Assembly (NCBI RefSeq): GCF_017313765.1
Contig: NZ_JAFLNC010000001.1
Location: 1 to 64,000 of the forward strand
Direction of reading: 5' to 3'
DNA: 64,000 bases
DNA from: Sneathiella sedimenti
Lineage (GTDB): Bacteria > Pseudomonadota > Alphaproteobacteria > Sneathiellales > Sneathiellaceae
The first letter of the stretch is position 1, and each line of letters starts with the position of its first letter. Below are positions 41,652-58,177 of this stretch, piece by piece. A program made the translations under genes and the position numbers. Below the pieces are notes generated by a model that had not been told where the DNA came from, searched no databases, and worked only from the letters and a program-made list of their open reading frames with translations.

Positions 41652-43463
41652 TTATACTTGGCTTTCCATCAGGTCGCCTGGCACTTTAATCGGCAAGGCC
41701 AGAAGCTGCTGGGCATATGTTTTCGCCAAATTATCGAGATGCAGAGTGGAGGTTCCGCCACCCCCTAGACAATTCGTTAGCAGAAAATTCACCGCATTCA
41801 TACCCGGTAAATCAAACCGCATGACGTCTCCTTCCACGACATGCCCGAAATATTCCTTCACGGCCTCTTCCGTCGCGCTTTGCTTAATCCAGGGAAGGTA
41901 ATCAGGCTTGCGGGCAATGACGCCGACATTGGCATTGTTCCCTTTATCTCCGCTGCGTGCCGCGGCCAATGCAACCAAGGGAACTTCGATCATGGTGTCA
42001 GACGTCAATTTCAAAGGTGTTTCGGGAGCGGCATGACGTACTTTCGGGAAGTTTGAATATTCGCTCGGAACCTTTGTCTCATATTTAACCGGTTTATTAT
42101 TTATATATACTTTCGGCTGAATTCTCGCTTTGTCGATCTGAAAGGCGAATTGCGCCACAACCGGTGTAATCTTGGGTCGGCCCGCTGCTCCGGCGGAGGT
42201 GCGACCTGTAGTCATGGAAAGACCGACACCCGTCGTTTCCTTGGAGAAAAGCTCCAATGCTGCCCGTTCATCATGCCGGACGTCTATCTGAGTAATGATT
42301 TCCCGGGCAGCGGCCGCATGTTCATCTGCATTCTTTCCCCATAGGGTTTGCGCACCGATAATATGCACAGCCGTATCGCGATAATCGCCGAGATTACGTT
42401 CGACAAAAAGACGGCGCGTCCGCTTGAGCAAAGCATTGGCAAAGGCCTGCCCCTTTTCCGCCGCGTCAAACCCGGTGACAACGGTCATTGCGGTCGCGCG
42501 ATATCCATCCTTGTAGGTGCCGGATACTTTATACGTTGCCGTTGGCGGGCGACCCTTAACACCTGCGATCTCCAGCCAGTCTTTCCCTGTCTCGGTCAGG
42601 GTAACCCCGGAAAAATCACAAATCACATCCGGCATGATATAGGCTTCTGGATCGCCGATCTCATAGAGGATCTGCTCTCCCACCGTCAGTCGGGAAACAA
42701 GGCCGCCGGTGCCTTCTGGCTTGGTAATAGCAAAATTACCATCCTCCCAACACACGGCGATGGGATAGCCCATGTCATCCCAACCATCGACGGTATCACG
42801 CCAGTCCGTAAAGTTTCCGCCCGTCGCCTGCGCGCCGCACTCGAGTATATGTCCGGCGAGTGAACCTGAGGCAAGCTTGTCATAGTCATCGACCGTCCAT
42901 CCGAATTCATGGATAAGCGGACCCAGCGTAACGGCACTGTCAACACAGCGCCCCGTAATCACTACATCTGCCCCCTGATCGAGAGCGGCGGCAATCGGAA
43001 ATGCCCCGAGGTAGGCATTGGCGCTTATCATTCCGTCTGGCATCGGGGCGCCCGAAAACATCTCGGTCGTCCCTTCTGTCCTCAAATTTTCAATGTCATT
43101 GGTAAGATTATCGCCTTCGACGGTCCCTATTTTGAGATCCACGCCGGCGTCTTCAGCGACTTTCGCAAGTGCCGCAGCGCATGCCGCAACATTGACACCG
43201 CCCGCATTGGCGACAACCTTTATGCCACGCGCCTTAATTTCGTGAAGTAATGGCTTCATGGCGAGATCGACGAAATCCCGCGCATATCCAAGTTCAGGTG
43301 ATTTCTCTTTCGCGCGCACCAAAATAGACATGGTGACTTCTGCCAGATAGTCGAATACCAAGTAGTCAAGATTGCCCTTCAGGACAAGTTGGCGGGGCGC
43401 CTCTTGAGAATCGCCCCAATACCCCGATGCTCCGCCAATCCGAATGGTTTTAGAACTTGCCAT
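41652..43463 (-). CDS. AtuA-like (DUF1446) acyclic terpene utilisation family protein
   Basis: This 603-residue protein starts with TIRIGGASGYWGDS and contains the DUF1446 core (VVANAGGVNVAACAAAL, GQFCVD-like VITGRCVDSAVTLGP) plus a C-terminal AtuA-like domain (about 500–595) with LAAARSGDKGNNANVGVI. In Pseudomonas, AtuA is required for citronellol and geraniol growth; its reaction is not settled. ATG 43463 has AAAGG nine bases upstream. An ATG at 43472 overlapping the hydratase stop is the alternative. It is in the TetR-ECH-AtuA-ligase-CaiB operon. Confidence 0.9.
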   Translation of the reverse strand: MASSKTIRIGGASGYWGDSQEAPRQLVLKGNLDYLVFDYLAEVTMSILVRAKEKSPELGYARDFVDLAMKPLLHEIKARGIKVVANAGGVNVAACAAALAKVAEDAGVDLKIGTVEGDNLTNDIENLRTEGTTEMFSGAPMPDGMISANAYLGAFPIAAALDQGADVVITGRCVDSAVTLGPLIHEFGWTVDDYDKLASGSLAGHILECGAQATGGNFTDWRDTVDGWDDMGYPIAVCWEDGNFAITKPEGTGGLVSRLTVGEQILYEIGDPEAYIMPDVICDFSGVTLTETGKDWLEIAGVKGRPPTATYKVSGTYKDGYRATAMTVVTGFDAAEKGQAFANALLKRTRRLFVERNLGDYRDTAVHIIGAQTLWGKNADEHAAAAREIITQIDVRHDERAALELFSKETTGVGLSMTTGRTSAGAAGRPKITPVVAQFAFQIDKARIQPKVYINNKPVKYETKVPSEYSNFPKVRHAAPETPLKLTSDTMIEVPLVALAAARSGDKGNNANVGVIARKPDYLPWIKQSATEEAVKEYFGHVVEGDVMRFDLPGMNAVNFLLTNCLGGGGTSTLHLDNLAKTYAQQLLALPIKVPGDLMESQV

Positions 43464-43468
43464 GTCCT

Positions 43469-44296
43469 TCATCCTTTCTTGTTATTGTCGGTGATCTGCC
43501 AGGATGGCTTTCGCTTTTCCGCGAAGGCGGTCTGTCCTTCCTTGCCTTCTCCACCTCGATTGAGTTCAGAGAATTTTGCCGCCGAAAAGCGCACCATTTC
43601 CTCTTCCGGGAGCGATCCGACCTTCAGCATAATCGCCTTGGTCGCCGCGTTGGCCATCGGGCCGCAGCGCAGTACCCGGGCCACCACATCTTCCAACATC
43701 GCATCAATGTCTGCATCGGCGGAGAGATATTGTGCGATACCATACTCATACGCCTTTGCGCCGTCGAAGCGTTCCCCCGTGAGCGCGAGCTGGCGGGCAC
43801 GTGTCAGCCCAATACGTTTCACCACATACGGCGCAATCTGCGCTGGCGCAACGCCGAGTGTCGTTTCAGGCATACCCATCCGGGCGCCTTCCGCAACGAT
43901 TGTAATGTCGGCAAGACAGGCGTAGCCCATGCCACCCCCGAACGCGGATCCCTCTACAACAGCGATAGTCGTCTGTGGCAAATGCTCGAACTTCAGGAAG
44001 GCCATACCGGCGGCCTGGTTACGCTCCATAATCGGGTCGCTGTCCTTGGTGACAACATCCTCGGCCATGTTGCGACGTTCCTTGATATCTCCCCCCGCAC
44101 AGAAATGCCCTCCCACTCCACGCAGGACAACGACCCTCACATCCGGTGTCGCCTCAAGCCAATCAACAACAGCCGCAAATTCCGCTCCCATTTGACTGTT
44201 GATGGCATTTCTCTGGTCGGGCCGATTGAACCACAGGTTCAAGCGCCCCTCAGCAACTTCAAGCTTTAAAAATTCACATTCCGGTAGTTCATGCAT
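43469..44296 (-). CDS. Enoyl-CoA hydratase, AtuE/3-methylglutaconyl-CoA hydratase type
   Basis: The crotonase fold is seen in GHFCAGGDIKERRN (oxyanion loop) and GSAFGGGMGYACLADI. The segment MGMPETTLGVAPAQIAPYVV resembles 3-methylglutaconyl-CoA hydratases and AtuE, with the usual catalytic Glu. It would add water to a 3-branched glutaconyl-CoA made by the carboxylase encoded at 51.5–55.2 kb, giving an HMG-CoA-like product; this is inference. It overlaps the next gene and begins 36 bases after tetR. Confidence 0.87.
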   Translation of the reverse strand: MHELPECEFLKLEVAEGRLNLWFNRPDQRNAINSQMGAEFAAVVDWLEATPDVRVVVLRGVGGHFCAGGDIKERRNMAEDVVTKDSDPIMERNQAAGMAFLKFEHLPQTTIAVVEGSAFGGGMGYACLADITIVAEGARMGMPETTLGVAPAQIAPYVVKRIGLTRARQLALTGERFDGAKAYEYGIAQYLSADADIDAMLEDVVARVLRCGPMANAATKAIMLKVGSLPEEEMVRFSAAKFSELNRGGEGKEGQTAFAEKRKPSWQITDNNKKG

Positions 44297-44332
44297 TTTC
44301 TTTTTCTTTCTTCTTATCGCATCACCTGCCGC

Positions 44333-44953
44333 TTATGCGTCGGTCAGGTATCGTTTGAACATAGCCTTAAATTGATCAATTTGCAGCGAAACTTTTTCAT
44401 TTCCCCCTGGAATCATATTTGTCAACGCCAGGCCGCGGAGCGTCACAAGCAGCATATGCCGCCAAGATCGAATTTCCGCCCGGTTTCGGCCGGTATCCTC
44501 AAAGATCGCCTGCCAAACATCCGCTCTTCGTCTCTCCAATTCTTCGAGCGTCGTCGCAATCGCTTCCTCGAAATCCGGATCCTGCCGTCCGCGTACCGCA
44601 ATTTCAATAAAAGCCGTATAATTAAATCCGCGAAACCCTTGCCAGTAATCATCGACAATCCGGTCGATCCGCTCCGTTAGCGGAAGGCTCGCAAGTTCGG
44701 TTGCATCCAGATGCTGGCTTAGCCGACTTGCAATTTCCTCGATACTGGCAATCAACAGGGATTTGGGGTTTTCGAAATGATACTGAATTGCCCCGCGCGT
44801 CAGCCCGGCTTCGCGGGCGACATCCGCCATGGTAAGCTGTCCCGCCCCCTTTTCATGCAGTAACATAATTGTTGCGTCAACGAGGCGCCGGCGGGTTTCC
44901 ACTCGCCTGTCTTCCTGCCGTCGACGTTTTCCATTCTTTTGCGACTCAATCAT
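44333..44953 (-). CDS. TetR-family transcriptional regulator
   Basis: The 206-residue protein has a basic N-terminal tail, the TetR helix-turn-helix (AGQLTMADVAREAGLTRGAIQYHFENPKSLL; about residues 45–72) and a helical ligand-binding C-terminus. I chose ATG 44953 because the longer frame adds a Cys-rich stretch unlike the family. It heads the ECH-AtuA-ligase-CaiB operon and is divergent from the acyl-CoA dehydrogenase operon. A perfect palindrome midway between them is its likely operator. By family precedent the ligand is probably an acyl-CoA. Confidence 0.9.
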   Translation of the reverse strand: MIESQKNGKRRRQEDRRVETRRRLVDATIMLLHEKGAGQLTMADVAREAGLTRGAIQYHFENPKSLLIASIEEIASRLSQHLDATELASLPLTERIDRIVDDYWQGFRGFNYTAFIEIAVRGRQDPDFEEAIATTLEELERRRADVWQAIFEDTGRNRAEIRSWRHMLLVTLRGLALTNMIPGGNEKVSLQIDQFKAMFKRYLTDA

Positions 44954-45038
44954 GGTCACACCCGCTTTCGCGGAGCCTGAACACGCACCCGAATATTCAC
45001 GGCAAAAACATCCGCAATCGTCATCCCACAATATTTAT

Positions 45039-45067
45039 TTGTAACATTCATGCATGAATGTTAGTAT
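45039..45067 (+). promoter_or_regulatory. Candidate promoter of acyl-CoA dehydrogenase operon
   Basis: TTGTAA (45039–45044) and TAGTAT (45062–45067) are separated by exactly 17 bases, each matching four of six consensus positions. The operator palindrome occupies the spacer. Confidence 0.45.
45042..45063. promoter_or_regulatory. Perfect 22-bp palindrome, likely TetR operator
   Basis: The sequence is two exact inverted 11-mers, TAACATTCATG and its complement. It sits 88 bp from the tetR start and 80 bp from the acyl-CoA dehydrogenase start. It overlaps the candidate promoter, which fits repression of both divergent operons. I found no second copy in the other intergenic regions of the island. 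Confidence 0.8.
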
Positions 45068-45143
45068 GAGCCAACTAAAATAACAATCCCCTTTAGGGGG
45101 CCGGAAACTCAAATCATTCCGGATAAAAGAGACGGGGAAAATC

Positions 45144-46289
45144 ATGCAGCTCACTCAGGAACACCGGGAACTATCCGAAAGTTTGAAAAAATTTATCGAG
45201 GCGGAAATAAACCCCCATGTCGACGAATGGGAAGAGGCGGAACAGTTCCCGGCCCATGAACTGTTCAAGAAAATGGGGAATATAGGGTTCCTCGGCATCA
45301 GCAAACCGACAGAGTTCGGCGGCAGTGGTCTCGACTATTCCTATGAAGCCGTTGCATCCGAGGCGCTGGGCTATATTGCTTGCGGTGGCGTCGCAATGGC
45401 AATCGGCGTACAGACTAACATGTCGACCCCGGCTCTCGCCCGACATGGTTCGGACGAACTGCGTCGTGAATTCCTTGCCCCCGCCATCGCCGGCGATATG
45501 GTCGGCTGTATCGGCGTGACCGAAGCCGCCGCCGGTTCAGACGTCGCGAGCCTTAAGACAACAGCCCGGAAAGACGGCGATGACTATGTGATCAATGGCT
45601 CCAAAATGTATATTACAAACGGGCTGCAGGCGGACTGGATCTGCCTCCTTACCAATACCGGCGACGGCCCCGTGCACAAGAACAAAACGCTGATCTTGGT
45701 CCCAATGGATAGCCCCGGCATTACCAAGCATAAAATCCGCAAGATTGGCATGATGTCCTCTGATACGGCGCAGCTGTTTTTTGACGACGTTCGCGTGCCC
45801 CAGCGCAACCGGATTGGCGAAGAAGGGCGCGGATTTATATACCAGATGCAGCAGTTCCAGGAAGAACGTCTGTTCGCAGCCGCCCGGGGCCCCCGCGTAA
45901 TGGAAGAAGCAATTAACGAAACGATTGAATATACTCGGGAACGCAAGGCTTTCGGCAAAGCCATACTGGACAATCAGGTTGTAAACTATCGACTGGCCGA
46001 ACTCCAGACGGAAGTAGAGGCGTTGCGCGCCCTCACCTATCATGCGGTGGAACTCTATGTCGCCGGAGAGGATGTAACCAAGCTTGCTTCCATGGCAAAG
46101 CTCAAGGTTGGCAGGTTGCAGCGGGAAGTCATGGATAGCTGCCTGCAATACTGGGGTGGGCAGGGATATATGTGGGAATCCTCCATCTCCCGGAAATTTC
46201 GGGATTTCCGACTGACCTCCATTGGCGGTGGCGCTGATGAAGTCATGCTGAAAGTCATTACGAAGCTGATGGGCATATCCCCGGACTAA
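45144..46289 (+). CDS. Acyl-CoA dehydrogenase (AtuD/citronellyl-CoA-like)
   Basis: The FAD enzyme introduces a 2,3 double bond into an acyl-CoA. ACAD domains are evident: CIGVTEAAAGSDVASLKTTARKDG in the middle domain, the FAD-binding RKAFGKAILDNQ, and the end region GQGYMWESSISRKFRDFR. The usual catalytic GTNE-type region reads IGGGADEVM, as recalled for AtuD-type enzymes, in which the base is provided elsewhere. The length is 381 residues. It leads a three-dehydrogenase operon from a promoter controlled by the palindrome. Confidence 0.92.
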   Translation: MQLTQEHRELSESLKKFIEAEINPHVDEWEEAEQFPAHELFKKMGNIGFLGISKPTEFGGSGLDYSYEAVASEALGYIACGGVAMAIGVQTNMSTPALARHGSDELRREFLAPAIAGDMVGCIGVTEAAAGSDVASLKTTARKDGDDYVINGSKMYITNGLQADWICLLTNTGDGPVHKNKTLILVPMDSPGITKHKIRKIGMMSSDTAQLFFDDVRVPQRNRIGEEGRGFIYQMQQFQEERLFAAARGPRVMEEAINETIEYTRERKAFGKAILDNQVVNYRLAELQTEVEALRALTYHAVELYVAGEDVTKLASMAKLKVGRLQREVMDSCLQYWGGQGYMWESSISRKFRDFRLTSIGGGADEVMLKVITKLMGISPD

Positions 46290-46300
46290 GGAACAGACAG

Positions 46301-47512
46301 ATGGACTTAACGGATCAGTCGGAACACAAACAGTTTCGCGAGGAAGTGAGGAAGTTCATCGCCGAATATCGTCATCTCGCACCGGGAGACACGGCACATT
46401 CCTACCGCCTGATGCCGCGCCCCTATTCTGACGACGTCCGTAACTGGCAGAAGCTTCTGGTTGAAAAAGGATATGCAACCCGGACAGTACCCACTGAATA
46501 TGGGGGCTTCGGCGCGAAACCAGATATCCTGAAATCGAAGATCATTGTAGATGAGTTTTTCAGGGCAAATGTCCCGCAGGGACTATATAGCCAGGGTATC
46601 TCCATGCTGGTACCCACCCTTCTTGAACATGGAACAGAGCAGCAAAAGAAAGATTGGGTCGGCCCTACAATCCGCGCCGAGGTTTTCTGGTGTCAGGGCT
46701 ACTCGGAACCGAATTCGGGCTCCGACCTCGCCAGCCTGCAGACCAGCGCAATAGAAGATGGCGATGACTTCATCGTTAATGGTTCGAAGATATGGACCTC
46801 CTCCGCACATGTCGCACAAATGATCTTCTGCCTCGTCCGCACGGAACCTGACGCGGGAAAATATGACGGGATAAGCTACCTGATCTTTCCGATGGATACG
46901 CCGGGGATCGAGATACAGCCACTTCAGACGATGACGGGGCATCCGTCCTTCAATGAGGTTTTCTTTACCGACGTCCGCGTTCCGAAAAGCGCCGTGGTTG
47001 GCGGGCGCGGCAAAGGCTGGAAAGTTGCAAACAGCACACTTGCGCACGAACGGGGCATGCTATCGAGCGCCAATATGTCTCTTGAACGCCTCCAGAAAAT
47101 TGAGAAGCTCATCAAGTCGGAAGAAATATCCAGCCATCCGACCGTTGAAACAGCTGCGTTGATGGACCGGTATATCCGTCTTCAGGCTCGGGTGCAGGGC
47201 ATGCGATTTCATGAAATGCGCCTTATATCGGATGCCGCGGCGGGCAAACCGAGTGGTCTCGGGGATATGGTTTGCAAGCTTCTCGGCTGCGAACTCAACC
47301 ATCAACTGGATGCGCTCGCCATCGATATCCTTGAGGAAACCGGGGTTCTGTATGATGGCATCCCATCCATGGAACTCGATGGCATTTGGCAGCAACTCCA
47401 TATGTACGACCTCGGCTTAATTATCGGCGGTGGCACCGCCCAAATTCAGAAGAACATCATCGCGGAACGCGGGCTTAGTCTGCCGCGGGAGCCGCGCTTG
47501 GGACAAGGATAA
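46301..47512 (+). CDS. Acyl-CoA dehydrogenase, subunit of paired FadE type
   Basis: The 403-residue ACAD has the middle-domain motif CQGYSEPNSGSDLASLQTSA and ends with GGGTAQIQKNIIAERGLSLPREP, typical of actinobacterial FadE steroid or branched-acid dehydrogenases. It is directly followed by a shorter, divergent ACAD, a layout in which the two form an alpha2beta2 enzyme with one functional catalytic site per pair. Here this subunit keeps the full C-terminal FAD-binding motif. AAGGAAC precedes the ATG. Confidence 0.91.
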   Translation: MDLTDQSEHKQFREEVRKFIAEYRHLAPGDTAHSYRLMPRPYSDDVRNWQKLLVEKGYATRTVPTEYGGFGAKPDILKSKIIVDEFFRANVPQGLYSQGISMLVPTLLEHGTEQQKKDWVGPTIRAEVFWCQGYSEPNSGSDLASLQTSAIEDGDDFIVNGSKIWTSSAHVAQMIFCLVRTEPDAGKYDGISYLIFPMDTPGIEIQPLQTMTGHPSFNEVFFTDVRVPKSAVVGGRGKGWKVANSTLAHERGMLSSANMSLERLQKIEKLIKSEEISSHPTVETAALMDRYIRLQARVQGMRFHEMRLISDAAAGKPSGLGDMVCKLLGCELNHQLDALAIDILEETGVLYDGIPSMELDGIWQQLHMYDLGLIIGGGTAQIQKNIIAERGLSLPREPRLGQG

Positions 47513-47516
47513 CCCG

Positions 47517-50677
<3,161 letters not shown>

Positions 50678-51472
50678 CTAGGCGTGGCGCGTTCCCGGAG
50701 CAGGCGGATTGCGCGGTGGCCCGGCGAAACATTGTGCGATGGACATCCAGCGTATCGCGATATCGCCGCGGACCTTCAGCTTGGTATCGGCAATATTGCG
50801 GGTCTGCGTGACCACCTGGCAGAATTCCGCGGCATCGCCCTCAACCAAGTCCGTTTCATTTTCCGAGTTCCATTCCCAGATTTCGCCAGATGGGGCGGTC
50901 AACCTGACGCAGGGAACCGGCTCAGGCACATCCTCCTTGCGATTGATGAAGGTCCAGCCGAAGGTATTCATCCCCATCACGGCAATGCTTTTGATGAGAT
51001 CCCTGTTTTCCCGCTCAACACCCAGCAAATCGTATATTTCCTGCGCGTGGGACCAGGTCTCCATCAGGCGCGCCGAGATACTGGATCGCGCGCTCATGCT
51101 TGGGCCAACCCAGAGCAGCCGCTGTTTCGGGTCTGCCGCATGGAAGCGATCCGCCATCTCAAGATAATAATCCCGCCAGGCATCCCGAAGGGCAATACCA
51201 TTCAAGCCATCCAGCATCTTATCGGTCGCGTCGACAAGCGAGCCGGATTTATCGCGCAGTTCGCCAAGTTTCCCGTAAACTCGCTTGAACTCCTCTTCAT
51301 CCGTGAGGGTCAAGTCGGCAACGTAATTGAAGAAATGGAGATGTTGAAGGACATCATTAATGGTCCAGTCGCGAAATAACGTCACCCGGTCGTAATCCGC
51401 TTCACCAAGCGGCTCTATAAGAGTGTAGAGCGCTTCGCTTTCGTCTCTGAAGTCATAGGCTTCTTTCAGCAT
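50678..51472 (-). CDS. TIGR03084-type / maleylpyruvate isomerase-like DinB-fold protein
   Basis: The 264-residue protein has a DinB-like four-helix N-terminal domain: FRDWTINDVLQHLHFFNYVADLTL, and SARLMETWSHAQEIYDLLG with potential metal-binding histidines. It is related to the TIGR03084 family, common in actinobacteria beside acyl-CoA catabolic genes. Mycothiol-dependent members isomerise or transfer thiols, but this host is not expected to make mycothiol. The function is therefore open. It lies between the biotin carboxylase and reductase genes with small gaps. AAGGAAA precedes the ATG. Confidence 0.78.
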   Translation of the reverse strand: MLKEAYDFRDESEALYTLIEPLGEADYDRVTLFRDWTINDVLQHLHFFNYVADLTLTDEEEFKRVYGKLGELRDKSGSLVDATDKMLDGLNGIALRDAWRDYYLEMADRFHAADPKQRLLWVGPSMSARSSISARLMETWSHAQEIYDLLGVERENRDLIKSIAVMGMNTFGWTFINRKEDVPEPVPCVRLTAPSGEIWEWNSENETDLVEGDAAEFCQVVTQTRNIADTKLKVRGDIAIRWMSIAQCFAGPPRNPPAPGTRHA

Positions 51473-51498
51473 GATCTGAATTTCCTTTTATTTCCGGG

Positions 51499-53490
51499 TT
51501 ATTCCGACGCTTCGATCTCAAACAACAGATCGTCAACCGATACCTGGCTTGCCGCCGTTGCGATTACATTCTGCACGACACCGGAGACTTCCGCCAGAAT
51601 ATCGTGCTGCATCTTCATTGCCTCCAACACCGCAAGGCGTGTTCCGACCTCTACCGTATCGCCGGCTTTGACGAAGACATCCAGTAAAGTACCATGCATG
51701 GGCGCTATCACCTGCCCGCTGCCGGCGGCTCCCGCCGCTGATAGCGGGACGGCAATCTCGTTTGCAAACCGGAGCGTTTTTCCATCATCGGTGAGTTCGA
51801 GGACACCTTCGGACGGGACATCATAATGCACGCGTCTACGATTTCCATCAACGGTCAGCTGTGCCTTATTTTCACTCCGCCCCATGACATCCACAACAAG
51901 GGGGGTGTCGCCGACCATGACCTTATAGCCACCCTCACGTCTTGGTGAAACGGTCACATCTGTCTTGCCATCACCCGCCGCGAACACATACCGCGTCAGT
52001 AGATCACCGCCACTCGACCAGTCCATGAGTTGATCGCTCGCAAATAAGGCGCTGGAAGCGGCCTTATCACGTTCCACCTGATAGAAAAGAACGGCCGCCA
52101 TCGCCATCTCGGCATCACTCGGCACTTTTGCCGCAAGACGGTTCTCGTCAAACAGCTCCCCGATAAAAGCTGTGGTAGCCTCTCCCCTGGCGAAGGTTTC
52201 CTCATTCAAAATATCAATGAGAAATCCACGATTTGTCGTCAGTCCGAACAGAACGGTGTTCTTGAGCGCCTCAATCAGGCGATGACGCGCTATTTCCCGG
52301 CTCTCGCCATAGGCAATAACTTTTGCGATCATCGGATCATAAAAGGGGGAAATCTCCTGTCCGGCATCAATACCGACGTCAAAGCGAATCCCCTCTCCTT
52401 CCGCCGCCTGCCATCTTGAAATCCTGCCTGTACAGGGCAGAAAGTCCTGGGTGGTATCCTCCGCATAAAGGCGGACTTCAATAGCGTGGCCCTGCAAGGC
52501 CACATCCTTTTGCGCCATCCCGAGAGGTTCACCCTGGGCCACCTTTATCTGCAAAGAAACCAGATCTATTCCTGTAACCAGTTCGGTTACCGGATGCTCA
52601 ACCTGCAGGCGGGTATTCATTTCGAGAAAATAGAAATTATTGCCGGCGTCAAGCAGAAACTCGACAGTACCGGCCCCTCGATAGTTGATACTGCGGGCTG
52701 CCTCTACCGCCGCGGCTCCCATCTTTTCGCGCAACTCAGGCGTCATTACCGGGCACGGCGCTTCCTCCACCACCTTCTGGTGACGGCGCTGCACAGAACA
52801 ATCCCGTTCGCCCAGATGAATCACATTCCCGTGGCTGTCCGCAAAAACCTGCACCTCCACATGCCGCGGCTCAATGATCGCCTTTTCAAGGATAAGCTCT
52901 TCAGAACCGAAAGCGTTAAGGGCTTCTGACCGGGCGGAAGCCAACGCGCCGGCAAGGTTTTTCTCCTCATGAACAAGACGCATGCCGCGTCCACCGCCGC
53001 CGGCAGCCGCCTTAACCATGATCGGAAAGCCGATTTCCTTGGCCGCGTTAATGAGGGTGTCATCAGATTGATCCGGATCTTCATATCCCGGAACGCAGGG
53101 CACCTTTGCCGCGATCATCCTTCGCTTGGCCGCCGCCTTGTTCCCCATAAGGTCAATCGCCTCGGCAGACGGCCCGATAAAGACGATACCCGCCGCCTCA
53201 CACGCGCGCGCAAACTCAGCATTTTCAGACAAAAAGCCGTATCCCGGATGAATTGCTTCCGCTCCGGCCTCTTTCGCCGCCGCTAATATCTTGGCCATAT
53301 CCAGATAAGACTGCTGCACTGGAGCCGGACCGATCAACACGGCTTCATCCGCCATTCGGACATGGAGTGCCGCTGCATCCGCTTCTGAGTAAACGGCAAT
53401 TGTTCGATACCCCAGGCTTTTTGCCGATTTAATTACCCTGACGGCGATTTCGCCCCGATTGGCGACCAATATACTGTTAAAATTTCTCAT
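51499..53490 (-). CDS. Acyl-CoA carboxylase alpha subunit (biotin carboxylase + BCCP)
   Basis: The 663-residue protein joins a biotin carboxylase (about 1–450; ILVANRGEIAVRVIKSAK, KAAAGGGGRGMR, LQVEHPVTE) to a BCCP domain. Biotin is attached at Lys626 in VLEAMKMQHD. With the beta subunit encoded upstream it would carboxylate an enoyl- or acyl-CoA. Geranyl-CoA and 3-methylcrotonyl-CoA carboxylases have the same layout. GGAAAC precedes the ATG. Confidence 0.94.
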   Translation of the reverse strand: MRNFNSILVANRGEIAVRVIKSAKSLGYRTIAVYSEADAAALHVRMADEAVLIGPAPVQQSYLDMAKILAAAKEAGAEAIHPGYGFLSENAEFARACEAAGIVFIGPSAEAIDLMGNKAAAKRRMIAAKVPCVPGYEDPDQSDDTLINAAKEIGFPIMVKAAAGGGGRGMRLVHEEKNLAGALASARSEALNAFGSEELILEKAIIEPRHVEVQVFADSHGNVIHLGERDCSVQRRHQKVVEEAPCPVMTPELREKMGAAAVEAARSINYRGAGTVEFLLDAGNNFYFLEMNTRLQVEHPVTELVTGIDLVSLQIKVAQGEPLGMAQKDVALQGHAIEVRLYAEDTTQDFLPCTGRISRWQAAEGEGIRFDVGIDAGQEISPFYDPMIAKVIAYGESREIARHRLIEALKNTVLFGLTTNRGFLIDILNEETFARGEATTAFIGELFDENRLAAKVPSDAEMAMAAVLFYQVERDKAASSALFASDQLMDWSSGGDLLTRYVFAAGDGKTDVTVSPRREGGYKVMVGDTPLVVDVMGRSENKAQLTVDGNRRRVHYDVPSEGVLELTDDGKTLRFANEIAVPLSAAGAAGSGQVIAPMHGTLLDVFVKAGDTVEVGTRLAVLEAMKMQHDILAEVSGVVQNVIATAASQVSVDDLLFEIEASE

Positions 53491-53542
53491 TTGTTTCCGG
53501 ACCTACCTGTTCTTTATCATTATTTTTATTGATTACCGGAGA

Positions 53543-55165
53543 TTAAAGTCGGCCGACGCCAAAGCTGTTTGGCTGCAAGACTCGATTGCGCGCCTCCCAA
53601 CAGGTCTGCAACGCAAAGCCAATGACCTTTCGGGTGTCCCGCGGATCGATGACCCCCTGATCGAGCAGCCGGCCCGAGGTATAAAAAGCATCCGCCTGAC
53701 TATCAAAATGATCAATCAACCGCTTCTTCTGGGCGGCCAGCGCCTCCTCATCGACGGGGATGCCTTTTCTTTCCGCACCGCTTCGGGCCACTTGGTCCAT
53801 GGTGACAGCAGCCTGCTCTCCGCCCATCACGCCTGTCTTGGCGTTCGGCCAAGCGAACAAGAAATCCGGGTCATACGCAAGTCCGGCCATGCCATAGTTT
53901 CCCGCCCCGAAACTTGCGCCGATGTAGAATGTAATCTTCGGCACCCGAACATTGGAGACTGCCTGAATCATTTTCGATCCATGCTTGATCATGCCTTTTT
54001 GTTCATATTCCTTGCCGACCATATAGCCGGTAATATTGTTGAGGAAGATGAGTGGAATATTGGCCTGGTCGCAGAGCTGGAAGTATTGTCCGCCCTTGGC
54101 TGCGCCGTCGGGATCGATCGGACCGTTGTTACCAACAATGCCGCAGGCCTGTCCAAAGATATTGGCCTGTAGACAGACGAGAGTCGAACCATAACGCGGC
54201 TTGAATTCCTCAAAATCAGAGCCATCAACGAGCCGGGCAACAACTTCACGAACATCGTAGGGCTTTCGATAATCCACTGGCACAACCCCGGCAATTTCCT
54301 CGGGATCATAGAGTGGCTCCTTGAAGCTTTTCACCTCCGGCTTAGGGCAATTGTCGTTCCAGCCGAGACGGCCGATAATATCCCGCGCGATCAGGAGGCC
54401 ATGGGCATCATCTTCGGCAAGATACTCAATAAGCCCCGTTGTGGTCGCATGCATTTCCGACCCTGCAAGTTCTTCATCATCCGAAATTTCGCCGGTTGCC
54501 GCCCGCACCAGGGCTGCACCGCCGAGCGAAGCCCGTCCCCGCCCCTTGATGCCGATTACATAATCGCTCATGCCTGGAAAATACGCCCCGCCTGCTGTTG
54601 ACGGTCCGTGTAGCACAACGAAGGTCGGGATACCGGCAGCGCTCAGTTTTGCGAGTCGTTGAAAACCACCCCCGCCATGCGCCCAGGATTCAACCTGATA
54701 TTTCAGGAGATTGGCCCCGGCGCTCTCTACAAGATGTACAAAGGGAAGCTTTTTATCGATGGCGACATCCTGGCACCTACGAAGCTTCTCTCCAGTCTTT
54801 TGGGTCATTGCGCCCGCATTAATACCGCTGTCGCTTGCGAAGATCATGCAGCGCACACCATTGATGAACCCGATACCGGCCAGCGAACTCGCACCGGGAA
54901 TGCTTTTGTCCCGATCATTCGTATCCACCATGTAGTTGGCAAGACCGAACAGCTCCAGAAACGGCATCCCGGGATCGAGAAGGCGTACCAGCCGCTCACG
55001 CGGGGTAAGTTGTCCGCGTTCCTCAAACCTGGCTCGACGGCGTTCAGATAATTGTTTGGCGCGATCCTTGAGTGCCTGCAAATCATCAACAAGCGCTAAC
55101 ATTTCCTGTCGATTGGCGGCAAAACTGTCAGAGGATGTGACGATTTTGGAAGAGAAAACGGTCAT
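53543..55165 (-). CDS. Acyl-CoA carboxylase beta subunit (carboxyltransferase)
   Basis: The 540-residue carboxyltransferase resembles methylcrotonyl/geranyl-CoA carboxylase beta subunits: LNNITGYMVGKEYEQKGMIKHG and GASFGAGNYGMAGLAYDPDFLFAWPNAKTGVMGGEQAA are typical. It transfers CO2 from biotin to the gamma carbon of a 3-methyl-2-enoyl-CoA in that family; the chain length is not readable here. It is the first gene of a minus-strand operon followed by the alpha subunit. It is divergent from the HMG-CoA-synthase-like gene. CCGGAG precedes the ATG. Confidence 0.93.
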   Translation of the reverse strand: MTVFSSKIVTSSDSFAANRQEMLALVDDLQALKDRAKQLSERRRARFEERGQLTPRERLVRLLDPGMPFLELFGLANYMVDTNDRDKSIPGASSLAGIGFINGVRCMIFASDSGINAGAMTQKTGEKLRRCQDVAIDKKLPFVHLVESAGANLLKYQVESWAHGGGGFQRLAKLSAAGIPTFVVLHGPSTAGGAYFPGMSDYVIGIKGRGRASLGGAALVRAATGEISDDEELAGSEMHATTTGLIEYLAEDDAHGLLIARDIIGRLGWNDNCPKPEVKSFKEPLYDPEEIAGVVPVDYRKPYDVREVVARLVDGSDFEEFKPRYGSTLVCLQANIFGQACGIVGNNGPIDPDGAAKGGQYFQLCDQANIPLIFLNNITGYMVGKEYEQKGMIKHGSKMIQAVSNVRVPKITFYIGASFGAGNYGMAGLAYDPDFLFAWPNAKTGVMGGEQAAVTMDQVARSGAERKGIPVDEEALAAQKKRLIDHFDSQADAFYTSGRLLDQGVIDPRDTRKVIGFALQTCWEARNRVLQPNSFGVGRL

Positions 55166-55389
55166 TCGGAACTCCGGATTTTTATTTTTTTCTTTATTGA
55201 TAGCATAGGAAAGTTTGCGTCGTTAAGAAAAAAAGACGCGGACGATCGAAGCACGATTTAATTTTCTGGTGTTACGCCAGCAGTCGTTTTAAACTGTTGG
55301 CCTGCAGGAATTTTCGGTGCGGAAAAGATGGTGCTGCGTTTCCTGCAACATATGTGGCATTAAGAAATAATAAAAAGGAGCCTTTCCAA

Positions 55390-56859
55390 ATGGAAGTAGG
55401 AATATTGGCCTACGGGGGATATATCCCACAAAGCCGATTACAACGCAGTGAAATCGCAAAAGCACACAGCTGGTTTAACCCCGGACTGATGGGTCTCGCC
55501 AAAGGCGAACGAGCGATGGCGAACTGGGACGAAGATAGCGTCACCATGGCAGTTGAAGCCGCACGGGATTGCCTCTCGGAATATGACCGCAGCGATATTT
55601 CTGCCGTCTATATGGCGTCCACCAGCTTTCCATTCATGGATCGTCAGAATGCCGGCATTGTTGCCGATGCCCTTAACCTGAGCACTAGCCTGCAAACCCT
55701 CGACTTCGCCTCTTCTCAGAGAGCTGGTAGCGCGGGATTGGCGACGGCCCTCCAGGTTGCCAAAGGAGGCAGCGGCCCGATCCTCTTCACCGCCGCCGAA
55801 AAACGCCAGACGAAAGCAGCCAGCCCGCTGGAATTTACTTCCGGTGACGGTGCAGCCGCATTCCTGGTTGGCCAGGGAAAGATCATTGCCCGACTTCTCG
55901 GCAGCCATACGGAAGCCGTCGATTTTGTGGACCACTTCCGCGGCGAAGGCGAAGCTTATGATTATAACTGGGAAGAGCGCTGGATCCGGGATGAGGGTTA
56001 TCTCAAGATAGTGCCCAGTGCCATTTCAGCCTTGTTGTCTGAAACCGGCGTCAAGGCAGAAGATATTACCACTTTCTGCTTTCCGGTCGCGGCACGCGGT
56101 GTTGCCGGGATGCTCGCGAAGAAACTCGGCATTCCTGAAAGTGCCGTCGCGGACAACCTCCAGGCAAACTGTGGCGAAACCGGTACTGCGCATTCCATGG
56201 TTATGCTGTCTCTTGCATTGGAAAACAGCAAGCCCGGCGACAAAATTCTGGTGGCAAGCTTCGGTCAGGGCAGCGACGCCCTGCTGTTCGAGGTAACCGA
56301 AGAAATCAAGTCGCTGTCGCCCCGCAAGGGTGTTGCAGGGTATCTCGCCCGGCGCTATGCGGAAACGAACTACAGCAAGTTTCTTGCGTTCCACAATCTT
56401 GTTAAACTGGAACGTGGTATCCGTGCAGAAACCGACAAGAAGACAGGCCTCACGACTCTATACCGCAACAAGGGAATGACTCAGGCTATGATTGGCGGGC
56501 AGTGCTCGCAATGTGGTACGGCACAATTCCCGAAATCAAATATGTGCGTGAACGAAAATTGCGGTGCCATCGGCACGCAGGAGGATTACCCCTTCGCGGA
56601 AAGGATTTCCAAAGTGAATTCCTACACGGCGGACCGCCTTACCTACTCACCCGATCCGCCCGCGTATTACGGTATGATTCAGTTCGAGGAAGGCGGTCGC
56701 CTGATGAGTGACTTCACGGACATCTCACCGGAGACGGATATCCAGGTGGGCATGCCGATGCGGATGATGTTCAGGATTAAGGACTATGACGACAAGCGCG
56801 GATTCAGGCGCTATTTCTGGAAAGCGGCCCCCGCGGACGCTTCAAATAAAGGAGAATAA
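55390..56859 (+). CDS. HMG-CoA synthase-like protein fused to a DUF35 OB-fold domain
   Basis: The 489-residue protein has an HMG-CoA synthase/thiolase-superfamily module (about 1–305) followed by a DUF35 domain (about 360–480) with a zinc ribbon (Cys372, 375, 386, 391) and an OB fold. At the expected HMGCS active site, the Glu of GSES reads Thr78 (ASTS), the nucleophile Cys region reads DFASSQRAG (Ser108–Ser109) and the His of FHQP reads FCFP (Cys230). It therefore probably lacks classical HMGCS catalysis. Archaea use a thiolase–DUF35–HMGCS complex, and the next gene is the thiolase. AAGGAG precedes the ATG; an in-frame extension upstream is not used. Confidence 0.88.
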   Translation: MEVGILAYGGYIPQSRLQRSEIAKAHSWFNPGLMGLAKGERAMANWDEDSVTMAVEAARDCLSEYDRSDISAVYMASTSFPFMDRQNAGIVADALNLSTSLQTLDFASSQRAGSAGLATALQVAKGGSGPILFTAAEKRQTKAASPLEFTSGDGAAAFLVGQGKIIARLLGSHTEAVDFVDHFRGEGEAYDYNWEERWIRDEGYLKIVPSAISALLSETGVKAEDITTFCFPVAARGVAGMLAKKLGIPESAVADNLQANCGETGTAHSMVMLSLALENSKPGDKILVASFGQGSDALLFEVTEEIKSLSPRKGVAGYLARRYAETNYSKFLAFHNLVKLERGIRAETDKKTGLTTLYRNKGMTQAMIGGQCSQCGTAQFPKSNMCVNENCGAIGTQEDYPFAERISKVNSYTADRLTYSPDPPAYYGMIQFEEGGRLMSDFTDISPETDIQVGMPMRMMFRIKDYDDKRGFRRYFWKAAPADASNKGE

Positions 56860-56861
56860 CA

Positions 56862-58067
56862 ATGGCCTCAGGAATTAAAGATAAAGTTGCAATTATCGGT
56901 ATGGGCTGCTCCAAATTCGGGGAACGCTGGAATGACAACGCAGAAGATCTGATGATCGAAGCCTATGTCGAAGCGCTGGAAGACGCCGGTATTGAAAAAA
57001 GCCAGATCGAGGCGGCATGGCTCGGGACAGCTATTGAAGAGGAACATGTCGGTAAGTCCGCCGTGCCTCTTTCCATGGCACTCCGCCTGCCGAATATTCC
57101 GGTAACGCGTGTAGAAAACTATTGCGCCAGCGGTTCCGAAGCTTTCCGCGGTGCCGTCTATGCTGTTGCTTCAGGCGCCTGCGATATCGCGCTCGCCCTT
57201 GGTGTCGAGAAATTGAAGGATACGGGATATGGCGGTTTGCCGCAACGTAACCGCGGTTCCGTCAATGACCTCTTCTGGGCGAATGCCTCGGCTCCCGGCT
57301 CCTTTGCACAGCTGGCATCCGCCTATTCAGCAAAACACGGTGTCAACAAGGACGACATGAAACGGGCTATGGCCCACATTTCCGTGAAAAGCCACGATAA
57401 CGGATCTCGTAATCCAAAGGCGCATCTTCGTAACAAGATCAATGAAGAGAAGGTGATGAACGCCCCGATGATTGCAGAGCCACTTGGTCTCTTCGATTGC
57501 TGTGGTGTGAGTGACGGATCGGCCTGTGCCATTGTCACGACGCCGGAAATTGCGAAATCTCTTGGCAAGAAAGACCTGATCACGGTGAAGGCGCTTCAGC
57601 TTTCCGCCTCCAACGGCACGGAAGCTCAGCACAACTCCTGGGACGGCAGCTATTTCGTCACAACCCGGGCAGCTGCAAATCGGGCCTATAAAGAAGCCGG
57701 CATCACCAAGCCACGCGACCAGATCAGCATGTTCGAGGTTCATGACTGCTTCTCCATTACCGAACTGGTCACCATGGAAGATCTGTTCATCTCCGAAGAA
57801 GGTAATGCCGTCAATGACGTGATGAATGGCTTCTATGATGCGGACGGTAAAGTCCCCTGCCAGATCGACGGTGGACTGAAATGCTTCGGTCATCCGATTG
57901 GTGCATCAGGTCTTCGCATGATCTATGAGATGTATCTCCAGATGCAGGGCCGCGCCGGCGAACGCCAGCGCAAGGAAGAACCGGTCTTCGGCATGACGCA
58001 TAATCTGGGCGGCTTCCCGCATCAGAACGTCTGCTCAATCACGATTGTCGGAAAAGAAGGCGCCTGA
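56862..58067 (+). CDS. SCP2-type thiolase
   Basis: The 401-residue thiolase has an intact active site: nucleophile Cys88 in VENYCASGSEAF, EVHDCFS (His294), CFGHPIGASG (His344) and late Cys391. It resembles archaeal acetoacetyl-CoA thiolases and SCP-x thiolases that partner with DUF35 proteins. Only two bases separate it from the HMGCS-like/DUF35 gene, so the proteins very likely form a complex. It would perform Claisen or retro-Claisen chemistry. A strong terminator follows. Confidence 0.92.
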   Translation: MASGIKDKVAIIGMGCSKFGERWNDNAEDLMIEAYVEALEDAGIEKSQIEAAWLGTAIEEEHVGKSAVPLSMALRLPNIPVTRVENYCASGSEAFRGAVYAVASGACDIALALGVEKLKDTGYGGLPQRNRGSVNDLFWANASAPGSFAQLASAYSAKHGVNKDDMKRAMAHISVKSHDNGSRNPKAHLRNKINEEKVMNAPMIAEPLGLFDCCGVSDGSACAIVTTPEIAKSLGKKDLITVKALQLSASNGTEAQHNSWDGSYFVTTRAAANRAYKEAGITKPRDQISMFEVHDCFSITELVTMEDLFISEEGNAVNDVMNGFYDADGKVPCQIDGGLKCFGHPIGASGLRMIYEMYLQMQGRAGERQRKEEPVFGMTHNLGGFPHQNVCSITIVGKEGA

Positions 58068-58104: not shown

Positions 58105-58134
58105 CCAACCGGCTATTGCCGGTTGGTTTTTTTT
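58105..58134 (+). terminator. Terminator after thiolase
   Basis: A perfect nine-base-pair hairpin (CCAACCGGC / GCCGGTTGG, loop TATT) is followed by eight T's. Confidence 0.92.
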
Positions 58135-58177
58135 CTAGGCCCGACATCTCAATAAAAATAAAAAGGGGAGATAAAAA

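Follow-up and report, generated by a model that had tools for sequence, protein, structure and literature searches.

Complexes of a thiolase-fold enzyme with a DUF35 protein and a subunit of the hydroxymethylglutaryl-coenzyme A (HMG-CoA) synthase (HMGCS) fold have been described in archaea and in Pseudomonas protegens. According to PMC6392133, the HMGCS-fold subunit PhlA of P. protegens has Gly115 in place of the catalytic Cys and Cys83 in place of the Glu; the PhlACB complex is assembled as (A2C2)2B4, its bound ligand is touched by PhlC residues only, and its subunits are inactive when expressed separately. The authors liken PhlACB to the archaeal complex, whose HMGCS has Cys114 and Glu82. 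Thus, with PhlA, an HMGCS fold lacking the catalytic triad is already known from a thiolase/DUF35 complex. Here, we analyzed a related gene pair of Sneathiella sedimenti, in which an HMGCS-like domain and DUF35 are fused into one protein that is followed by an SCP2-type thiolase. The pair lies in a stretch of 64,000 nucleotides (positions 1 to 64,000 of contig NZ_JAFLNC010000001.1), called the window below. The pair probably encodes the two obligate components of a thiolase complex. In this complex the HMGCS-like part would be structural, and the reaction would be a retro-Claisen thiolysis during the breakdown of chains that are branched, isoprenoid or derived from steroids.

Domain architecture and active-site residues

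The fusion protein matches the Pfam families ACP_syn_III_C, zf-ChsH2 and OB_ChsH2_C, and its N-terminal part has the HMGCS fold, with archaeal HMGCS (6esq_I), PhlA-type subunits and MucABC chain A as the closest solved folds. All matches to the HMG-CoA synthase models of NCBIfam remained below the cut-offs (PRK04262, 213.4 vs 244 bits; TIGR00748, 163.4 vs 353.35; TIGR01835, 53.8 vs 360.35). The downstream product contains Pfam thiolase domains and scores 703.6 bits with NF004810 (PRK06157; cut-off 403). Its closest relatives are archaeal thiolases by sequence, and benzoylsuccinyl-CoA and archaeal thiolases by fold. The HMGCS-like, DUF35 and thiolase domain types are therefore encoded together in two genes and not as three separate subunits, the first two sharing one open reading frame (ORF). 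The fusion has 489 aa and the thiolase 401 aa. These results confirm the earlier note, made from the letters of the window alone, in its description of a fusion and a thiolase that starts 2 bases after it, and they support its view that the pair is related, in two-gene form, to the archaeal thiolase-DUF35-HMGCS complex.

The columns of the Glu-Cys-His triad were set by an alignment of 80 relatives and the window protein to three references, archaeal HMGCS (6ESQ_I), PhlA and MucABC chain A. Residue counts refer to alignment A1, which holds the window protein and 79 of the 80 loci L002-L081 (L011, with unread letters, was left out), and, for thiolases, to alignment A2, which holds the window protein and 40 of 71 full-length sequences. 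At the three triad columns the fusion has Thr78, Gln110 and Pro232 (Table 1), and no Glu-Cys-His set could be placed in its pocket. Of 33 fused sequences in a broader set, none has Glu or Cys at the triad columns, and three (L121, L125 and L098) keep the triad His. The same alignment contains sequences with E, C and H (L093, L094 and L095) and KAS III-like sequences with C and H (L096 and L097), which indicates that the columns are correctly placed. The earlier note had rightly named Thr78 as the replacement of Glu, but had assigned the Cys and His columns to Ser108/109 and Cys230, which lie one or two columns away; its conclusion of a missing triad is unaffected. Its claim of a full catalytic set in the thiolase holds: the nucleophilic Cys and the HDCF and GHP motifs are all present, each in 41/41 rows of A2. 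The four zinc-ribbon cysteines of the fusion (Cys372, 375, 386 and 391) are found in 80/80 rows of A1.

Table 1. Positions of the gene pair, its active-site residues and neighboring features in the window
Feature	Position	Strand	Evidence
Fusion gene, 489 aa, HMGCS-like + DUF35	55390..56859	+	ORF list, Pfam, structure model
HMGCS-like domain, about aa 1-340	55390..56409	+	Solved-fold and profile matches
Thr78, HMGCS catalytic Glu column	55621..55623	+	T in 80/80 A1 rows
Gln110, HMGCS catalytic Cys column	55717..55719	+	A1: Q 71/80, L 5, M 3, R 1
Pro232, HMGCS catalytic His column	56083..56085	+	A1: P 79/80, S 1
DUF35 domain, about aa 366-481, zinc ribbon then OB fold	56485..56832	+	Pfam
SCP2-type thiolase gene, 401 aa	56862..58067	+	NF004810 (PRK06157) match
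Cys88, thiolase nucleophile position	57123..57125	+	41/41 A2 rows
HDCF motif (His294-Asp295-Cys296-Phe297)	57741..57752	+	41/41 A2 rows
His344 in GHP motif	57891..57893	+	41/41 A2 rows
Terminator-like hairpin with T run (9 pairs, 8 T)	58105..58136	+	37 bases past thiolase stop
Carboxyltransferase, divergent neighbor	53546..55165	-	Geranyl-CoA carboxylase beta 578 bits; methylcrotonyl-CoA carboxylase beta 468
Biotin carboxylase/carrier subunit	51502..53490	-	Best solved match 9tps_G
Enoyl-CoA-hydratase-family protein	43472..44296	-	Putative isohexenylglutaconyl-CoA hydratase 4zu2, 225 bits
AtuA-family protein	41655..43472	-	PF07287, PF23544

That the pair makes HMG-CoA for isoprenoid synthesis, as a true synthase and thiolase, is extremely improbable. 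Homology to archaeal HMGCS speaks for it (213 bits with PRK04262), but the archaeal cut-offs are not reached, the triad is absent and the host shows no mevalonate pathway. IspG and IspH are present in the host genome, HMG-CoA reductase had no match there, and the HMG-CoA synthase model matched only the fusion, with 54 bits, and one further site, with 32 bits, at a cut-off of 360. This agrees with the assignment of the host to the methylerythritol phosphate pathway by the earlier note.

The triad-less HMGCS-like domain is under purifying selection. In comparisons of the window with eight near loci (L002-L006, L008, L009 and L021), the ratio of nonsynonymous to synonymous substitution rates (dN/dS) lies at about 0.02-0.08 in the HMGCS-like part and at about 0.01-0.03 in the thiolase, although these ratios are rough with dS mostly above 1. 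Among stretches of 12 residues in the fusion, DYNWEERWIRDE (aa 191-202) is the best conserved. In the structure model it runs from the end of a low-confidence loop (aa 181-200; predicted local distance difference test, pLDDT, about 65-72) into a helix that starts at aa 196, and it may become ordered upon partner binding.

The residues that replace the triad and line the same pocket are conserved as well. In A1, Thr78, Ser or Thr at position 109 and Arg or Lys at position 111 occur in 80/80 rows each, Gln110 in 71/80, Glu or Asp at position 263 in 78/80 and His268 in 79/80, and the change of Cys to Gln resembles the KSQ decarboxylase domains. These residues (with Ser109 and Arg111 in the window) could form a second active site, for instance that of a decarboxylase or hydrolase working before or after the thiolase. 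We consider such a site unlikely: the His column shared by HMGCS and ketoacyl synthases (KAS) is Pro, the KAS Asn column is Glu or Asp, and Gln110 gives way to Leu or Met in 8/80 rows and Arg in 1, and to L, P, A, T, R or S in distant fusions.

If, as we prefer, the HMGCS-like part is a structural component of a thiolase complex, the fusion would be the equivalent of PhlA and PhlB, or of archaeal HMGCS and DUF35, in one chain. The HMGCS-like part would make no HMG-CoA; together with DUF35 it would serve as a scaffold, holding the thiolase in place and giving the acyl-CoA entrance its shape. The chemistry would be carried out by the thiolase alone, with Cys88 attacking a bulky 3-oxoacyl-CoA and CoA then taking the acyl group. 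Cys88 is presumably assisted by His294, Cys296 and His344, in the roles known from SCP2-type thiolases.

Co-occurrence and distribution of the two genes

The relatives search yielded 255 confirmed loci, of which the best 80 (L002-L081) were compared with the window. All 80 are proteobacterial by title except one SAR324 contig, and the closest named relative among them is a Sneathiella (96%). The comparison of ORFs found both genes in 76/80 loci, with gaps of at most 150 bp in 67 (at most 20 bp in 35) and of 182-6587 bp in 9. The second gene was not seen in four: L064 and L076 end just past the fusion, L007 ends within a partial thiolase, and L066 is discussed below.

A survey of 398 Pseudomonadota genomes detected a full-length fusion in 10; any match was found in 16, six of them distant or partial. 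The NF004810 thiolase exceeded its cut-off in exactly the same 10 genomes and in no other, while weaker thiolase-family matches (best 289 bits) occurred in 353. The naive chance of this 10-genome agreement is 4e-20, a value that ignores shared descent. One internal stop was counted in the fusion match of G139 and one in the thiolase match of G241. In two genomes the genes sit on separate contigs. In G147, where they are thus far apart and yet both present, they are distant from the contig ends on one side or both; in G285 both are near contig ends, and this is perhaps only an assembly split. On plasmids, a thiolase match adjoins the HMGCS-like gene in 13/13 loci fetched out of 60 records with a match.

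In the window, the fusion and thiolase genes look like a two-gene operon, since by eye AGGAG precedes both starts (AAGGAG at 55375-55380 for the fusion) and a hairpin follows the thiolase gene. The terminator scan gave 6 such sites in the scanned stretch against a shuffle mean of 3.6, and the hairpin behind the thiolase has the most pairs. No plus-strand promoter-like site was found by the promoter scan 5' of the fusion gene.

The family is widespread and not limited to the host of the window. A tree built from 41 HMGCS-like domains unites the fusions of proteobacteria and of the SAR324 contig in a single clade (26 rows, 100/98), which the Rhodococcus fusions join weakly (84/55); a fusion of Novosphingobium sp. 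ES2-1 (L118) is long-branched and falls outside it. PhlA, MucABC chain A and the Priestia homolog group together in a second clade (100/99). Support is only 72/21 for the deep branching among the fused clade, archaeal HMGCS and PhlA, so the tree leaves room for one loss of the triad as well as for several. The two-gene fusion form also occurs in Rhodococcus and in haloarchaea, where the fusion has the thiolase gene before it, lies near phenylacetate-type genes and has neither Glu nor Cys at the triad columns (L121 and L122). Unfused sets were found in Priestia (L123, three genes) and in an alphaproteobacterium (L092:326-2906), in which a thiolase, a triad-less HMGCS-like gene and DUF35 stand in a row, an arrangement from which the fusion could arise.

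A local oddity or a decaying gene was rejected on the grounds of this wide occurrence and the purifying selection. These two findings, along with the PhlA precedent, also do not support the term degenerate, or a peculiarity of the host, in the earlier note. Its proposal of the HMGCS-like part as a scaffold gains support, by analogy, from PhlACB.

Several observations weigh against an obligate complex. The case for it is built from homology and co-occurrence, and shared descent also favors co-occurrence. The predicted thiolase model is middling (pLDDT 75.9). L066 shows no thiolase across 5.3 kb downstream of the fusion, and its upstream sequence stops after 112 bases. Three or four of the zinc cysteines are lacking in 8 more distant members of the 33 fusions (L085, L086, L088, L090, L091, L098, L115 and L125), and zinc is thus not essential to the family; these eight relatives still keep the OB part. 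In the plasmid locus L116, the thiolase match (L116:7448-8634) is in two pieces beside an intact fusion and perhaps broken; this thiolase is absent from the PLSDB gene table.

Gene neighborhood and possible substrate

The pair is preceded by divergent genes for the two carboxylase subunits, and the AtuA-family and hydratase genes are found 11-14 kb away (Table 1). Altogether, positions 41655-55165 of the window hold genes of the acyclic-terpene-utilization type plus three acyl-CoA dehydrogenases. Between acyl-CoA dehydrogenase and carboxylase genes there are an old-yellow-enzyme family protein (48623-50653), nearest to mycofactocin/BaiCD-type models but below their cut-offs, and a TIGR03084 protein (50681-51472); the same arrangement occurs in L002-L006, L008 and L009. 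The passages of PMC4097962 consulted on the terpene-type pathway name no thiolase. In a Sneathiella-type host, the geranyl-CoA-carboxylase-like neighbors hint weakly at an acyclic-terpene intermediate as the substrate, and a role of the pair within the terpene-type gene set of the host is plausible but weakly supported. A branched acyl-CoA as substrate would be favored by these neighboring genes only.

For the other relatives, neighboring ORF families were counted at 71 loci that do not belong to the nearest Sneathiella group, within flanks of at most 8 kb that were often shorter. The clustering mixes real and antisense ORFs, and only ten annotated clusters were used, one of them without a Pfam match. 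Acyl-CoA ligases were present at 23 loci, short-chain dehydrogenases/reductases (SDRs) at 21, and crotonases and acyl-CoA dehydrogenases at 10 each. Similarly, genes such as those for acyl-CoA dehydrogenases, hydratases of the MaoC or crotonase type and CoA ligases surround the HMGCS-like gene in 11/13 plasmid loci. The other two contain SDRs, a vicinal oxygen chelate (VOC) protein and an amidohydrolase (L117) and a nonribosomal peptide synthetase (NRPS; L123).

The substrate assignment also meets with opposing evidence. The alpha (biotin carboxylase) subunit is not specifically geranyl-CoA-carboxylase-like, and the hydratase has a close runner-up match, the unspecific enoyl-CoA hydratase 4k3w, with 220 bits against 225. 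In seven loci (L002-L006, L008 and L009) the carboxylase adjoins the pair, whereas L007, L014 and L021 do not have it there. Neighbors unrelated to acyl-CoA are frequent, with nucleotidyl transferases in 10 loci, APH-type and UDP-sugar dehydrogenase families in 8 each, and tetratricopeptide repeat (TPR) and APS-kinase-type families in 7 each. Since the neighbors differ beyond the nearest Sneathiella loci, a terpene substrate is not a trait of the family. The terpene link as a family-wide trait was accordingly dropped; outside the nearest Sneathiella-type loci, the best geranyl-CoA-carboxylase-like match within the flanks was 29%.

Comparison with known systems

PhlACB (5M3K and 5MG5) resembles the pair in having an HMGCS-fold subunit without Cys and Glu, a DUF35 protein and a thiolase-fold subunit in which all of the catalysis resides. 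It differs in its three genes instead of two, the window fusing A and B, and in performing a biosynthetic C-acylation without CoA, whereas the context of the window looks catabolic. A biosynthetic acyltransferase like PhlACB or MucABC would explain why PhlA-type chains are at the top of the profile search of solved structures (166 and 162 bits; archaeal HMGCS, 141), yet we regard it as improbable. Acyl-CoA catabolic neighbors occur at many loci, and the thiolase is nearest to the archaeal and benzoylsuccinyl-CoA enzymes. Moreover, Tyr298-Asp of PhlC aligns to the HDCF position of the window, in two steps via the YD of the NRPS-adjacent Priestia homolog, which has no Cys. The window thiolase thus has His294 in the column of the active-site Tyr298 of PhlC, which speaks against such an acyltransferase. 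The fusion of A and B in a catabolic setting makes the pair a variant of PhlACB-like complexes.

In the archaeal acetoacetyl-CoA thiolase/DUF35/HMGCS complex (6ESQ), the HMGCS is a separate protein that keeps Cys and Glu and serves the mevalonate pathway. Benzoylsuccinyl-CoA thiolase BbsAB (7PXP and 7PYT) combines a thiolase with DUF35; to our knowledge it has no HMGCS-like part. The Sal-Shy and Ltp2-ChsH2 aldolases also join a thiolase fold to DUF35 (Shy and ChsH2), but carry aldolase residues instead of the thiolase set and no HMGCS-like part. These shared domains, and the occurrence of one relative (L118) in a steroid cluster, would suit a retro-aldolase of this sort, a very improbable function for the pair: aldolases of this sort have a YDxx motif, and CtSal, according to PMC12329534, reads YDCY there and has Gly at the position of the nucleophilic Cys, in contrast to Cys88 and HDCF here. 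DUF35 homologs fused to thiolase-superfamily members have been noted (PMC2954200), a statement that may cover the HMGCS-DUF35 fusion. Among the matches listed for open-licence PubMed Central, none was found to describe a two-gene form in which such a fusion accompanies a PRK06157 thiolase.

If the proposed complex is right, database entries of the fused architecture would represent non-catalytic thiolase subunits, and attempts to express these thiolases on their own may fail, as happened with PhlC (PMC6392133). A fixed partner would also explain the "synthase" genes of degradation clusters. In a bolder and doubtful version, a broad class of the HMGCS-like proteins of bacterial and haloarchaeal degradation clusters would belong to one kind of catabolic thiolase complex, with the HMGCS fold as a fused, substrate-shaping subunit whose rebuilt pocket (Thr78, Gln110, Arg111, Glu/Asp263 and His268) has a second job, such as acyl-chain grip or decarboxylation.

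The last comparison concerns the estrogen edc cluster of Novosphingobium tardaugens. According to PMC7793797, the "HMG-CoA synthase" EGO55_13555 lies beside the thiolase EGO55_13550; its authors assigned it no step, because a condensation made no sense to them, and proposed another activity such as thiolase. L118 shows the edc gene order given there, except for one gene that is fused in N. tardaugens, and its protein is a fusion with T, L and S at the triad columns and thus with none of the three residues. The edc cluster is like the window in that degradation genes surround an "HMG-CoA synthase" gene with a thiolase gene next to it, L118 holding a fused triad-less relative, and unlike it in that the L118 fusion is only 32% identical and has steroid instead of terpene-type neighbors. 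By analogy through L118, we propose that EGO55_13555 would encode the partner subunit of thiolase EGO55_13550. The pair described here therefore bears on the published puzzle of the edc "HMG-CoA synthase" and makes it directly testable.

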